From Gemmatimonadota bacterium (lineage in GTDB: Bacteria > Latescibacterota > UBA2968), in NCBI GenBank assembly GCA_009838845.1, contig VXRD01000155.1, positions 1 through 64,000 on the forward strand: 64,000 nt of DNA. The letters are read 5' to 3'. This document shows positions 34,658 through 40,275 of the stretch, in pieces. The notes below the pieces were generated by a model. That model was not told the origin of the DNA. It searched no databases and worked only from the letters and a program-made list of their open reading frames with translations. The stretch's first letter is position 1; every line of letters begins with the position of its first letter. The position numbers and the translations under genes are program-made.

Positions 34658-36061
34658 TTATGCGGGGACACTACGTCCCCTCGTTTTGTACTGGTTGAGC
34701 AGGTCGGTCAATCGGGATACGATTTCGGGGTGTTGCGCGTAGAGGTTTTCGCGTTCTCGGTAGCCGGTTTCCATGTCGTAGAGTTGGCCGGGGGTATCAT
34801 CCGGAGGGTCGTCGGGATAATCATTGCCGCCGGAGCTTTGGTGGAGGAGCAATTTCCATTTGCCCTGGCGGATGGCAAATTCGCCTTTGGAAGAGTGATG
34901 CACGGTGGCTTCGCGGATGGATGTCGCGTTCTGGCTCGTGAGGACGGGTAGGATGCTGCAACTGTCTTCGCCGGCATTTTCGGGAAGGGTATGGCCGATA
35001 ATGTCAGCGGCTGTTGCGATGAGGTCTGTGAGACATACGATTTCGTCGCTGAAGGATCCAGCCGCGACTTTTTCGGGCCAGCGGGCGATAAAGGGTATGC
35101 GATGCCCGCCTTCCCAGTTGTCGCGTTTGCAGCCGCGGAAGTGATAGGCACTGTAGTGGTTGTATTCTTGTTTTCGCGTGTGCATAAAGCGTTCGGGACC
35201 GTTGTCGCTGGTGACGATAAAGAGGGTGTTGTCGGTGGCGCCGATTTTTTCAACAGCGTCCATGATTTGCCCCACTGCCCAGTCGCATTCGACGACGAAG
35301 TCGCCGTATTTGCCGGCCTGGCTTTTGCCTGTGAATGCTTTGTTTGGCGCGATGGGCGTGTGGGGACCGGTTACGGGATAGTAGAGGAAAAAGGGCTGTT
35401 TGCCCGCTGCGGTTTCTTCGATGAAGGAGACCGCTTTTTTTGTGAGGTCTGGGATGACGTGTTCGGGTTTGAGGCCCGGCGCAGCGTGTCCTTCGCGTCC
35501 AAAGAGGCCCCTATGAGCACGGGCTGTTGGCTCGCAGATTGTGCGGTTGTTTTCGAGATAGACATAAGGCGGCATGTCCAGGGATGCGGAGATGCCGTAA
35601 AAGTAGTCGAATCCGAGGTCGCACGGTCCGCCGGTAAATGGTTGGGTGAAGTCTATGGCTTCGCCGCGGTTCCATCCCAGTCTGTAATTTTCGAGGTGTT
35701 GGACGCCTTTTTTGCGCGTCCAGTTTAATCCCACATGCCATTTGCCGATGCAAGCGGTGTGATATCCGTGTTGTTTGAGCAGGGACGCGACGGTCAGGCG
35801 TTCGGGTTCGATGAGGGGTTCTGAGTATCCGTTGAGGACGCCATTTTGCAGTCGGGTGCGCCAGCAATAGCGTCCGGTTAAGACGCCATAGCGCGAGGGG
35901 GAGCACACAGCGGAGCACGAGTGGACATCGGTGAAGCACATGCCTTCAGCGGACAGGCGGTCGATATTGGGGGTTTGGATTTTGGATTCGGGATTGAGGT
36001 AGCTGATGTCCCCATAACCGAGGTCGTCGAAGAAGATATAGACGATGTTGGGATTGGACAT
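34658..36061 (-). CDS. Sulfatase (formylglycine type)
   Basis: The 467-residue sulfatase begins MSNPNIVYIFFDDLG, giving metal-binding Asp12-Asp13 at once, so no signal peptide is present. The modification motif is CSPSRYGVLTG with Cys53. TSDNGPERF and GKWHVGLNW follow the family plan. The start at 36061 has GGAG six bases upstream; the ATG 12 bases earlier lacks a ribosome site. It resembles the arylsulfatase A side of the family and is closely similar in layout to the sulfatase at 40390. Its operon neighbours (GH117, esterase-like hydrolase) suggest a sulfated galactan-like substrate. Confidence 0.93.
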   Translation of the reverse strand: MSNPNIVYIFFDDLGYGDISYLNPESKIQTPNIDRLSAEGMCFTDVHSCSAVCSPSRYGVLTGRYCWRTRLQNGVLNGYSEPLIEPERLTVASLLKQHGYHTACIGKWHVGLNWTRKKGVQHLENYRLGWNRGEAIDFTQPFTGGPCDLGFDYFYGISASLDMPPYVYLENNRTICEPTARAHRGLFGREGHAAPGLKPEHVIPDLTKKAVSFIEETAAGKQPFFLYYPVTGPHTPIAPNKAFTGKSQAGKYGDFVVECDWAVGQIMDAVEKIGATDNTLFIVTSDNGPERFMHTRKQEYNHYSAYHFRGCKRDNWEGGHRIPFIARWPEKVAAGSFSDEIVCLTDLIATAADIIGHTLPENAGEDSCSILPVLTSQNATSIREATVHHSSKGEFAIRQGKWKLLLHQSSGGNDYPDDPPDDTPGQLYDMETGYRERENLYAQHPEIVSRLTDLLNQYKTRGRSVPA

Positions 36062-36088
36062 TGGGGTCTCCAATTGGTTGTATAAGGT

Positions 36089-37165
36089 TCATTTGGCGGG
36101 CGCGATGAAGATTTTGTCGCCCTCCTTACACCCAAGTGTCTTTGAGGCGTTTTCGTAGTTGCGAGCAATCCTCAAGCGGCCTTCCGCTGTCAAGAATGCA
36201 ACCCATTCTCCGCGCGGTACGTCTCCATAAGTGGTGGCAAGCAACACTGTGAACGTCTGCTCCCCATAGCTGACCTGAAAACGAGTTTTGGGAGAGATGC
36301 CAAGTTGCTGCAGGTCGCCCTCGATAAATTCGGTGTTGATGTTGCCGTAGGTCGAGGAGATGCTCTCTATCTTTGTGTAAGCCCCTCCTTCCACAAATTC
36401 CGCAGACGACACATGATTCGGAGCGATGGTCGCATCTTTGTCTCGTTCAATCGCACCGGTGTCCAGATAGGCGTCGAGCGCGCGCAATGCGGTTTCCCGT
36501 TCGATCTCTCTGAGGTTGACGTGTCCGTCGCGTGCCACAGACCAGAATACTGGCACATTCGGTGCCTTTGCCGCTTTCTGGATATACGCCTGGGGTCCCT
36601 CCGCTTCACTCTGATTACTGACGAAGAGCAACGGGAGACGTGGGGTATAACGCCATTCGTGGGGGTGCTCTGTATCTCGCACTTGCAGTGCCGCCCCCAA
36701 CGCGAGCAAGCCGTCATAACCTTCGGGAGCGGTCTCGGCGATCAGTGTCACGATCGCACCGCCCATTGAGCTACCCTGTACAATTACACGTTCAGGCGCG
36801 CCATAGGTTTGGGCAATGTGCTGGCGTAGCAGTTCGATGTCCGCTACCGCATCGACGACGATCGCTCCGTTGCGGCGGTAGCTGGTAGATGCGATCATCC
36901 AGCCATCGGCAAGCAGATGCTGGTACGTGGGTGAGTCTGTGCGAAAATCGGCGCTCAGGGGCGCATTTTCGGGGCGATAGCCGTGCGCCAGCAGCAGGAG
37001 TTTTCCGTTCCATGACTCCGGTATGGCGATGACGAATTTTGATTGCTGGAGTTGACCTGCTTCGGTGCGAAATTTAACTGCCTCTGCGGCTGGGGCGAGC
37101 AGTCCGCCGATGAGCAGGAAATAGCATATCCCTTGTACGAGTGTTGAACGGTAGATCGTTTTCAT
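36089..37165 (-). CDS. Secreted alpha/beta-hydrolase fused to a SAM-hydrolase-like C-terminal barrel
   Basis: This 358-residue protein has a signal peptide (about residues 1-29, hydrophobic core ICYFLLIGGLLAPAA, cleavage near AEA). An alpha/beta-hydrolase domain follows, with the nucleophile elbow GSSMGGA near residue 132 and LLLLAHGYRP as the oxyanion region. The last 100 residues do not belong to that fold. ATTYGDVPRGEWVAF, GRLRIARNYENASKTLG and EGDKIFI match the C-terminal beta-barrel of the SAM hydroxide adenosyltransferase family (DUF62), including the STYGNINTEF segment. The catalytic N-terminal domain of that family is absent. The gene is 27 bases ahead of a sulfatase. Esterase, deacetylase or peptidase activity are all possible. 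Confidence 0.78.
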   Translation of the reverse strand: MKTIYRSTLVQGICYFLLIGGLLAPAAEAVKFRTEAGQLQQSKFVIAIPESWNGKLLLLAHGYRPENAPLSADFRTDSPTYQHLLADGWMIASTSYRRNGAIVVDAVADIELLRQHIAQTYGAPERVIVQGSSMGGAIVTLIAETAPEGYDGLLALGAALQVRDTEHPHEWRYTPRLPLLFVSNQSEAEGPQAYIQKAAKAPNVPVFWSVARDGHVNLREIERETALRALDAYLDTGAIERDKDATIAPNHVSSAEFVEGGAYTKIESISSTYGNINTEFIEGDLQQLGISPKTRFQVSYGEQTFTVLLATTYGDVPRGEWVAFLTAEGRLRIARNYENASKTLGCKEGDKIFIAPAK

Positions 37166-37245: not shown

Positions 37246-38445
37246 TTATGTTCCGATGGTGTTTTGGTCGGTGTGATTCTGTTCTTTGAGGATTTGTTTT
37301 TGGAGGTATTCGGGCAGTTTGAGGACGCGCTGGAAGTAGGTGGGTTCGTCAAAGCGCAGGTTGTTGTTTTTGAAGAGGGGACGGTCTGTGTCGCGGCTGA
37401 GGTCGCAGTCGAATCGGGCGAGGACGGATTCGCTCATGCTGCCCCCGCCGTCCGGGTTGATATGGCACAGTCCCCAGGTGATGCCGCGTCCATCGCCGTT
37501 GTCGGCAAATGCGTCGGGTACAAAGGGTCCGGGGGCGACAGGGGGCACCTGGAGCAGGGATTTCATTTCGAAATGGAGGCCGTCAGGCGCGTATTGTACG
37601 GTGTTTTTTTCGGGTCCGTCCAGGCTGACGATTGCGGCGATACCCTCTTTGTAGGGCCAGAGGCAGGTTTCGTGGCCGGAGTTGAGGACGGGGTTTAGCG
37701 GTGATTTTTGGTATGGTCCTTCCGGATGGTCGGCAATGGCAACGCCCTGAGCGCGGATGATGTTTGCGCCGCCGCGTTTTTGTCCGGGCGAGCCTTTGTA
37801 ATACATATGGATTTTGCCTTTGTAGATGAGGGGGAAGGGGTCGTGTATGCAGTTGCAGTCCCAGTCGTCGGGGCCGCCGGGTTCCACGATGGGTCTGCCC
37901 ATTCGCGTCCAGGGTCCATGGGGAGAGTCGGCGATGGCGATGGTGACGGGGCACGAGTCGCCGCCCTGAATGACTTCGCTGTATGCCTGGTGGTAGAGGT
38001 AGTATTTGTTTTTCCAGACGAGGATGTCGGGTGTGCAGTTTGAGCGCCAGCCAAATTCGCCTTTTGAGGGGCGCGTGGCGGCTGGTCCCTGTTCTTCCCA
38101 GTGAAAGCCGTCTTCGCTGGTGGCATACCAGATGTCTGCGAGGTCCCAATCGACAGAGGGGATTTCGTCGGTGGCGTTTTCGTGTCCGACGGGGGGACCT
38201 TTTGTGCGCCGGCATGTGTACCAGACGTAATAGGTGCCGTCGATGCGGAGTACTTTGGATGGATCGCGGCGAGAGACGTTGGGTTCTCGTGAGAATCCCG
38301 CGAGGGGGGAGTATTTGAAGTTGCTGAAAAATTCATTGCCGCGGTCTTCATGGGGGTTCCATATATCGTACATGCGTTCCATTGAGGCACTGAGTTCGCG
38401 GTCTGGTTTTTCAAGTGGTAGTTTAGCGGGGAAGGGCGTTTGCAT
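37246..38445 (-). CDS. Glycoside hydrolase family 117-like protein
   Basis: The 399-residue protein is a five-bladed beta-propeller matching GH117, whose characterised members remove 3,6-anhydro-L-galactose from the non-reducing end of agar oligosaccharides. I recognise SREPNVSRRDPSKV with Asp61 as the probable base, SNCTPDILVW with Asp140, HDPFPLIYKG with Asp202, and NSGHETCLW with His258 as the probable unusual histidine acid. DWDLADIWYATSEDGFHW is also typical. No signal peptide is visible, so it would act on imported oligosaccharides. It is the first gene of the operon that includes a hydrolase, a sulfatase and the TPP enzyme. Family members with other galactosidase specificities exist, so agar is not certain. 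Confidence 0.88.
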   Translation of the reverse strand: MQTPFPAKLPLEKPDRELSASMERMYDIWNPHEDRGNEFFSNFKYSPLAGFSREPNVSRRDPSKVLRIDGTYYVWYTCRRTKGPPVGHENATDEIPSVDWDLADIWYATSEDGFHWEEQGPAATRPSKGEFGWRSNCTPDILVWKNKYYLYHQAYSEVIQGGDSCPVTIAIADSPHGPWTRMGRPIVEPGGPDDWDCNCIHDPFPLIYKGKIHMYYKGSPGQKRGGANIIRAQGVAIADHPEGPYQKSPLNPVLNSGHETCLWPYKEGIAAIVSLDGPEKNTVQYAPDGLHFEMKSLLQVPPVAPGPFVPDAFADNGDGRGITWGLCHINPDGGGSMSESVLARFDCDLSRDTDRPLFKNNNLRFDEPTYFQRVLKLPEYLQKQILKEQNHTDQNTIGT

Positions 38446-38503: not shown

Positions 38504-39106
38504 TTATTTGATTTTTGCCTTCAAGGTATCGACGAGTCGTTTCGCATGGGGCGATGCCGCAACCACTTTGTCGGGGTCAATCTGCGCGAGGATATCGAAC
38601 GAATGTTGCCCCTTTTCATATTCTCCTTTTGAAACACCCGAACGCGTCGCGTTTTTTAGGCCGTTCAATACATCGTCTTTTGGAATTTTCTCAATATCCT
38701 GACGGGCGGGAAGCGCGTTTTGTTTAAAGCCGTTTCCGTAGTAAGTAGCAAGAGTGTCCCTATCGGCAAGGAACCACGCCTCCATGCACTGCACCATCAG
38801 ATGTACCTGGTCGTCCGTGGTGCCCGAGGGTTGGTCCCAATTATCGGGCTTCTTCAGGTGTTGCCAGGGGCCTGTTATCACTGGTCCTTCGCTGTCAACC
38901 AATAGCACGATGAAGTCATATCTCCCAGGCCTGCGGACTGCCGCACGAAAATCATCGAAGGCTTCCCGCCGACTGCCACTTGCGACTACGCTCGGCATTC
39001 GGCCTTCCATGCCAGCCTTTTGAAAAAAATTGCTGAAACTCCGACGACACTTTGTCCTCAGTGCCTTTGTTTCCCCGCCACCTTCGACAAAAACCTTGAT
39101 TCTCAC
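38504..39106 (-). CDS. DUF4276 protein with TOPRIM-like motifs
   Basis: The 200-residue protein matches DUF4276. TOPRIM-like features are Glu8 in VFVEGGGETKAL and the Asp71-x-Glu73 pair in VLLVDSEGP, which would bind metal in a nuclease. The start is GTG at 39106, overlapping the ATPase stop by four bases (GTGA), so the two are translationally coupled. ATPase plus TOPRIM pairs act in phage defence in several systems (Gabija and OLD with both domains in one protein, PARIS as two proteins), in which the TOPRIM part is the effector. The function of this one is inferred from that analogy. Confidence 0.8.
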   Translation of the reverse strand: MRIKVFVEGGGETKALRTKCRRSFSNFFQKAGMEGRMPSVVASGSRREAFDDFRAAVRRPGRYDFIVLLVDSEGPVITGPWQHLKKPDNWDQPSGTTDDQVHLMVQCMEAWFLADRDTLATYYGNGFKQNALPARQDIEKIPKDDVLNGLKNATRSGVSKGEYEKGQHSFDILAQIDPDKVVAASPHAKRLVDTLKAKIK

Positions 39107-40275
39107 CAGCGGTTCCCTCCCAGGTCACCTCTGGTCCACAAGTCCCCCAAGCTATAACGCTTCAACCACTCGGTAAGGTCGGCCTTGTCAAGTCGGTGCA
39201 TTTCCGTCTGGCTGTCGTGCTTTTCGCAGACTACGACGCTCTCCGGCGTATCGGTCAAGGTGTCCACAAGCATGTCGGAGTGGGTTGTGACGATAAGCTG
39301 GCACCTTTGCGATGCCTCTCGCAACAGATCGCCGAGGACTGGCAGAACGTCGGGATGCAAGCCCAGTTCCGGCTCTTCAATACACACCAGTGGTGGGGGA
39401 TTCGGGTGGCAAAGGATAGATAGCAGGCACAGAAAGCGTAGCGTACCATCGGATAATCGCGTTGCTGGAACCATGATATTTTTTTCCTGGACGAAGACCT
39501 GAACCGTTCCGCCTTCAATACTGATGTCCAGATCAATCACGCCTTCGTAGAGTTGGCGCATGGTTTCCAGTATGCGATCTTTGACTTTTGGCTCCCGCTT
39601 CAACCGATTCAGCACCAGTCCCAGGTTTCTTCCATCTTCGAGCAAAAAGTCGTTGGGCAGATCTGCTGGTTGTGGCTGACGCGGTGGCGTGTGGCGACCA
39701 AAGGAACTCTCGCGATAGAGTCGCATGCGGTCAAATGTCTCGCCAAGCCATGTCAACTCCGGATATTGGTCCGGGTCCTTCCGCTGTGCAAGAATGGATT
39801 GCTGCAGATTGATCTGTTCCAGGACTAATGGATGGCGCGTTTCATCACTCTTGTACGACTCACCACTGTAATTCAGAAGGGCGTTACCGCCCATTAACTC
39901 GTAATAGATATAGGGCTTTGGTTCAGAGCTGTATGCCTCTTCTATCAGTTCTTCTATCAACTCGAATAGCTGGCCCCTCTCTGCAATCCCGAGGGAATAT
40001 CGTAGCGGTTTCTTCGGGTTATCCAGAATCACTTCGATATGGGCCGACGATGCTCTGGGGTCACCTCGCCAAAGCCAGTCGCGGATGCCTCCACCTTCTC
40101 GAATTGGGATCGTGAGATCTCTGGGCGTGGCTTTTAGCAGGCCAATCGCCTCGATAAGATTGGATTTTCCGGAGCCGTTGGGGCCGATAAGAACATTCAG
40201 GGGACGAAGTTCCAGTGCTTCGGTATCAGGCCCGAAGGAGAGCAGATTTTTCAGTTGGATGCGCTCTATAAACAT
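39103..40275 (-). CDS. RecF/SMC-like AAA ATPase of an ATPase-TOPRIM pair
   Basis: This 390-residue ATPase has Walker A GPNGSGKS at residues 31-38, an LSDGTLRFL signature, Walker B LVCIEEPELGLHPD and the switch histidine in VTTHSDML. The lack of long coiled coils sets it apart from SMC and Rad50 proteins and fits the AAA_21 group seen in defence modules. AAGGA lies seven bases before the ATG, and a promoter-like sequence is just upstream. The module interrupts a series of sulfatase and glycosidase genes, which suggests an independent insertion. A sensor role for the ATPase is inferred from related systems. Confidence 0.85.
   Translation of the reverse strand: MFIERIQLKNLLSFGPDTEALELRPLNVLIGPNGSGKSNLIEAIGLLKATPRDLTIPIREGGGIRDWLWRGDPRASSAHIEVILDNPKKPLRYSLGIAERGQLFELIEELIEEAYSSEPKPYIYYELMGGNALLNYSGESYKSDETRHPLVLEQINLQQSILAQRKDPDQYPELTWLGETFDRMRLYRESSFGRHTPPRQPQPADLPNDFLLEDGRNLGLVLNRLKREPKVKDRILETMRQLYEGVIDLDISIEGGTVQVFVQEKNIMVPATRLSDGTLRFLCLLSILCHPNPPPLVCIEEPELGLHPDVLPVLGDLLREASQRCQLIVTTHSDMLVDTLTDTPESVVVCEKHDSQTEMHRLDKADLTEWLKRYSLGDLWTRGDLGGNRW

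Follow-up and report, generated by a model that had tools for sequence, protein, structure and literature searches.

A predicted secreted hydrolase fused to a SAM_HAT_C-type barrel, and a branch of this barrel that lacks the catalytic domain of its enzyme family

In a stretch of 64,000 nucleotides from a Gemmatimonadota bacterium (GTDB lineage Bacteria; Latescibacterota; UBA2968; GenBank assembly GCA_009838845.1, contig VXRD01000155.1, positions 1 to 64,000), which we refer to as the window, the gene at 36089–37165 encodes a 358 aa protein, P0001, that combines an alpha/beta-hydrolase domain with a barrel like that of the C-terminus of SAM hydroxide adenosyltransferases. We interpret P0001 as a serine hydrolase that is secreted and probably acts as an esterase, with an accessory barrel drawn from an exported branch of SAM_HAT_C domains and putatively serving as a binding module, and we assign this interpretation a probability of roughly 0.5. 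The initial annotation of the window had given the coordinates of the gene exactly and had left its strand, which is the minus strand, unstated. The features of the gene are as follows.

36089..37165, minus strand: whole gene, signal peptide plus alpha/beta hydrolase plus SAM_HAT_C-type barrel, 358 aa
37079..37165, minus strand: Sec-type signal peptide, residues 1–29, assigned by eye, MKTIYRSTLVQGICYFLLIGGLLAPAAEA
36431..37078, minus strand: alpha/beta-hydrolase domain, residues 30–245, above the cut-off of Pfam PF12146
36104..36382, minus strand: SAM_HAT_C-type barrel, residues 262–354 (PF20257, 1.8e-12; 2zbu, 2.2e-6)

The translation contains GSSMGG at residues 131–136, ATTYGDVPRGEWVAF at 310–324, and EGDKIFI at 348–354. 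By eye, its N-terminus is a hydrophobic stretch followed by a cleavage-like PAAEA site, and P0001 is probably secreted.

The SAM hydroxide adenosyltransferase or (R)-SAM hydrolase family, formerly DUF62, comprises PF01887 and PF20257 and includes the fluorinase FlA and the chlorinase SalL. When the whole of P0001 is searched against Pfam, residues 272–352 match the SAM_HAT_C model PF20257 (E value 2.4e-11, 44.2 bits against a cut-off of 25.5), and the last 103 residues searched separately match the same model with an E value of 1.8e-12 (47.8 bits against 25.5). Sequence searches of the PDB matched residues 258–354 to the SAM-hydrolase-like Thermotoga structure 2zbu (2.2e-6) and residues 252–356 to SalL (8e-4), and both matches are confined to the C-terminal parts of their chains. 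The resemblance of the barrel to this enzyme family, which had been noticed from the sequence at the outset, is thus borne out, as is the absence of the catalytic N-terminal domain: no SAM_HAT N-terminal model from Pfam matches P0001 at an E value of up to 1, and an alpha/beta hydrolase stands in its place. NCBIfam models for fluorinase, (R)-SAM hydrolase, and tannase B match the corresponding parts of P0001, all far under their cut-offs. The fold search that had been proposed as a check gave weak support. AlphaFold2 modeled the full protein from its single sequence, without an alignment, at a pLDDT of 36.8 and the barrel from an alignment of eight near-identical orthologs at a low-confidence pLDDT of 48.6. 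In a Foldseek search with this low-confidence barrel model the nine best PDB matches were all SAM-hydrolase or halogenase chains, but even the best of them was weak (E value 0.032, TM 0.39, rmsd 8 Å).

Barrels of this type also occur without any partner domain. Short frames that match SAM_HAT_C but contain no N-terminal domain occur in 11 genomes of the class; these orphan frames are 82–174 aa, apart from one (L097) that measures 264 aa from stop to stop. In the phylum of genome G175, 12 of 16 genomes have an orphan barrel (E value 5.7e-21 or better). We examined 22 orphan frames, two of which are cut by contig ends. A lipobox pattern is present in 16 of the 20 uncut frames; in L020 and L021 a cysteine that escaped the pattern follows the hydrophobic stretch, and L025 and L027 resemble ordinary secreted proteins. 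Among the four orphans scanned in Pfam, L020, L022, and L100 exceed the PF20257 cut-off and L097 falls below it (20 versus 25.5), and no other Pfam domain was found in any of the four at an E value of 0.01. A hand tally of the genomes searched gives 12 with the fusion, 23 with an orphan, and none with both. One genome, G023, has two orphan barrels (C106:22201, which is L097, and C111:49161), of which one is highly divergent. A full-length SAM hydrolase is likewise encoded in most of these genomes (at C33:1240–1494 in G000, the genome that holds the window). Because the barrel exists as a stand-alone, apparently exported lipoprotein, it seems to have gained an extracellular job of its own.

Three full-length SAM hydrolase frames, namely L091 (883–1776), L092 (578 aa), and L148 (304 aa), have signal-peptide-like N-termini; complete exported SAM hydrolases may therefore exist and are a possible source of the exported barrel. 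In a further phylum with 396 genomes, 55 matched the barrel, none more strongly than 2e-14 and all in frames of at least 268 residues; with matches this weak and frames this long, that phylum gives no indication of this branch, either as an orphan or as a fusion. Viral contigs yielded no relative of the barrel, the fusion, or full SAM hydrolases, and no relative was found in phages. Among plasmids, the fusion barrel as a query retrieved a single canonical SAM hydrolase of Nonomuraea and the orphan barrel retrieved nothing.

For phylogenetic analysis we collected 79 distinct barrels from 147 matching frames and, after dropping the truncated L028, constructed a maximum-likelihood tree of 78. In this unrooted tree, which is based on 104 columns and contains long branches, fusion and orphan barrels, including the lipoprotein orphan L097, are separated by a branch with 100/97 support from 46 barrels of canonical full-length SAM hydrolases. 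The fusion barrels form a group with support 97/86; the orphans except L097, 20 in number, form another with 98/97. A single origin of the fusion and orphan barrels is therefore likely on the basis of this topology.

We then compared residues in the 78-row alignment between 17 representatives of this branch (4 fusions and 13 orphans, leaving out seven near-identical fusions and eight near-identical orphans) and the 46 canonical barrels. Two positions are kept on both sides, Asn275 (17/17 versus 45/46 canonical) and Tyr313 (17/17 versus 46/46), whereas serine at position 327 is found in all 46 canonical barrels and in only 1 of the 17. Four residues are gained in the fusion and orphan barrels: Trp321 (16/17 versus 1/46), Asn277 (15/17 versus 0/46), Cys346 (14/17 versus 0/46), and Arg318 (13/17 versus 1/46). 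Column 271, the aspartate of the ID-x(x)-F-G-N motif, is Asp in 46/46 canonical barrels and in none of the four fusions, which have Ser or Lys; the motif is thus incomplete in the fusions, its Asn being kept. Loss of this Asp across the whole fusion and orphan branch was considered and ruled out, since 11 of the 13 orphans have Glu or Asp in this column (nine Glu, two Asp, one Gln, one Gly). By alignment, Asn275, Tyr313, Ala327, Arg335, and Tyr337 correspond to N215, F254, S269, R277, and A279 of FlA, and passages of two papers on these enzymes list N215, S269, R270, R277, and A279 among the residues of the SAM or halide site (PMC3999930, PMC9234330). With the N215 position kept and those of S269 and A279 changed, the adenine side of the pocket appears partly kept and partly rebuilt. 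Because the catalytic domain is missing and the serine of the SAM site is replaced, we infer that the barrel no longer serves SAM chemistry.

What the barrel does instead could be explained in more than one way. It might be purely an oligomerization module that clusters the esterase domains, and passages of PMC12120602 and PMC4859513 describe SAM hydrolases and fluorinases as trimers with the active site between protomers. We nevertheless regard it as distinctly less probable than a binding role: in the short lipoproteins the barrel is the only domain and there is nothing to cluster, the strong conservation extends beyond hydrophobic positions to Asn, Tyr, Trp, and Arg, and the interface site of the enzymes involves the N-terminal domain that P0001 does not have. 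A second alternative, that the barrel still binds an adenosine-like or other nucleoside ligand and functions outside the cell in nucleoside binding or sensing, draws on the retention of Asn275, whose FlA counterpart N215 is counted among the SAM-binding residues in the passages cited earlier (PMC3999930, PMC9234330), and on the Tyr at the F254 position in 17/17 representatives. This is rather improbable in our estimation, because the S269 serine survives in a single representative, the A279 position has become Tyr, Phe, Trp, or His in all four fusion representatives, the half of the pocket that the N-terminal domain contributes is missing, and conservation of the Asn may serve folding.

A search with P0001 against 100 relatives found the full-length fusion, free of stops, in 10 of the 11 genomes of the genus, one of which (G010) has two copies; in the remaining genus genome, G008, neither fusion nor orphan was found. 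Eight named loci carry the fusion at 93–95% identity, six titled Candidatus Latescibacterota or Latescibacteria and two titled Gemmatimonadota; the latter two come from one isolate, RHO2_bin_15. The two copies in this isolate (L004 and L005) are 95% identical to the copy in the window, and it seems likely that RHO2_bin_15 is a mixed or mistitled bin. Outside the phylum, a search of 386 genomes with a barrel profile identified a 351-residue open frame with the fusion in G329, and within the phylum of G175 a 382-residue fusion frame was identified in G398. Since the phylum of G329 is represented in the searched set by G329 and G192 and includes neither G175 nor G398, the fusion is present in three phyla. 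Both copies align with P0001 over its whole length (44% and 45% identical, respectively), keep Ser133, His215, HG-x-R, and T-S-Y-R-R-N-G, and have SAM_HAT_C called by Pfam; Hydrolase_4 is above its cut-off in G329 and below it in G398 (22.8 versus 27), and the barrel of the G329 copy (L088) is four residues shorter at its start.

Given its intactness in 10 of 11 genus genomes and its relatives of 44–45% identity in two other phyla, the fusion is no assembly accident. A chance fusion, decaying remnant, or assembly artifact might be suspected because G008 has no fusion and no orphan and because all eight named records are metagenome-assembled, but the architecture is identical in three phyla with no internal stop in any copy, and this explanation is very improbable. 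Selection on the barrel speaks against it as well: mean dN/dS (NG86, 36 pairs of nine orthologs) is 0.137 for barrel residues 262–354, below the 0.205 for hydrolase residues 30–245, with 0.344 for residues 1–29, so purifying selection acts more strongly on the barrel than on the hydrolase and the barrel is no decaying passenger.

The hydrolase domain matches Hydrolase_4 (PF12146; E value 1.6e-7, 31.4 bits against a cut-off of 27), in agreement with the earlier description of an esterase-like domain with a GSSMGG elbow. Ser133 lies in this elbow, His215 in RDGH, and an HGxR motif at residues 61–64, and S133, H215, H61, G62, R64, and E187 are invariant in a nine-row alignment. The usual position of the triad acid is occupied by Ser186 in P0001, by Ser also in G329, and by Asp in G398, and Glu187 is an uncertain candidate for this role. 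No characterized tannase or esterase family in Pfam or NCBIfam matches P0001 above its own cut-off: the tannase/feruloyl esterase model PF07519 reaches 12.7 bits against 29.8, and although the tannase-like DUF6351 model PF19878 reaches 23.9 bits against 22.4, only positions 192–300 of its 655 are covered. The hydrolase is probably an esterase from the neighborhood of the tannase/DUF6351-like proteins.

A profile of the hydrolase part matched 20 of 386 genomes at a threshold E value of 1e-6; 11 of these carry the fusion and nine carry other hydrolases, and none of the 20 is an orphan-carrying genome with a barrel-less hydrolase. Six of these nine genomes were read; G148, G121, G278, and G120 have hydrolase frames of 445–471 aa with signal-like starts, and G103 and G199 have shorter ones. 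Pfam places L161 and L163 of these distant relatives in Hydrolase_4 and L163 also in DUF6351. It is likewise very improbable that the C-terminal part belongs to the hydrolase fold itself, for although it is present in every close-subfamily hydrolase found (12/12 genomes), the barrel stands alone in 23 genomes and is absent from the stretches examined (L160–L169, in which the two longest frames are possibly cut) in the nine genomes with more distant hydrolases. The sequence evidence for each half, the full-length relatives in three phyla, and the stand-alone barrels together uphold the division of P0001 into two domains.

Two neighbors flank the gene in the window.

37246..38445, minus strand: GH43-type glycosidase, upstream neighbor, 80 bp away (PF04616, 4.2e-11)
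34658..36073, minus strand: sulfatase, downstream neighbor, 15 bp away (PF00884, 1.2e-51)

The GH43 gene adjoins the fusion in seven of the eight named loci (cut by a contig end in L004 and L005, and not adjacent in L001), and the sulfatase gene in six of the eight (not in L002 and L003). In the five genomes examined from among G175 and its relatives, the gene directly after the orphan encodes a different sulfatase, 24–26% identical to that of the window. Sulfatases are common in both genomes (139 matches in G000, of 5.75 Mb, and 30 in G175), and the sulfatase link is therefore only a hint; beyond sulfatases and weak, wide families, no neighbor common to fusion and orphan genes was found. The GH43 and sulfatase neighbors hint at a role in the breakdown of an acylated, sulfated glycan. 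The window also contains an AAA-type ATPase-like open reading frame (39103–40275, named by eye) with a 200 aa partner (38504–39106); the ATPase-like frame precedes the fusion in L001, L003, L006, and L007 and follows it in L002, as if mobile.

In the most likely course of events, a SAM_HAT_C branch lost its catalytic N-terminal domain and came to be exported, and it now exists as a small lipoprotein in some genomes and as part of a hydrolase of the P0001 type in others. Ser133 and His215 would carry out ester hydrolysis, and the substrate could plausibly be a sulfated glycan also attacked by the GH43 enzyme and the sulfatase, while the barrel would bind a small ligand or a partner outside the cell through a conserved face formed by Asn275, Asn277, Tyr313, and Arg318-Gly-Glu-Trp321. 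More speculatively, a single recruitment could have turned the barrel into an exported domain able to bind on its own, giving a new family of surface lipoproteins that read an extracellular small molecule, nucleoside-like or glycan-derived, through an adenine pocket that has been rebuilt. Fusion to the esterase in a few lineages would then have let this ligand target or regulate the enzyme, the two forms replacing each other in the genomes searched.

Our search of the literature, which covered few subscription journals, found no publication that describes this fusion or a SAM_HAT barrel in exported or orphan form, and domain databases may already show the architecture. Text matches to DUF62 in PMC10743442 actually concern DUF6273. 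In the passages retrieved, the SAM_HAT C-terminal domain is discussed solely as one of the two parts of a SAM enzyme. That a branch of it occurs in three phyla in exported proteins lacking the catalytic part, and under strong purifying selection, indicates that the barrel is a module with its own function. This function becomes testable on proteins of about 100 residues, and knowing it may also clarify the role of the domain in fluorinases and SAM hydrolases.

Among known systems, the barrel of P0001 is closest to the SAM hydroxide adenosyltransferases, to which it is homologous across the whole C-terminal barrel and with which it shares the Asn of FGN and the invariant Tyr. It differs from them in being, as predicted, exported, in lacking the catalytic N-terminal domain, whose triad in these enzymes is D68-R75-H127 according to a passage of PMC4859513, and in the replacement of the S269-equivalent serine. 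The Asp of ID-x-F-G-N is Ser or Lys in fusions and mostly Glu in orphans, and Trp, Asn, and Cys have been gained. The hydrolase shares HG, T-S-Y-like, G-x-S-x-G-G, and GH motifs with tannase-like DUF6351/Hydrolase_4 secreted hydrolases of about 450 aa, but these relatives carry a long segment between the nucleophile and the His that P0001 does not have, and P0001 has the barrel. Carbohydrate-binding modules on exported esterases, also small beta domains appended to an exported hydrolase, offer a like role by analogy only; there is no sequence link, and P0001 matches no such Pfam model at an E value of up to 1.
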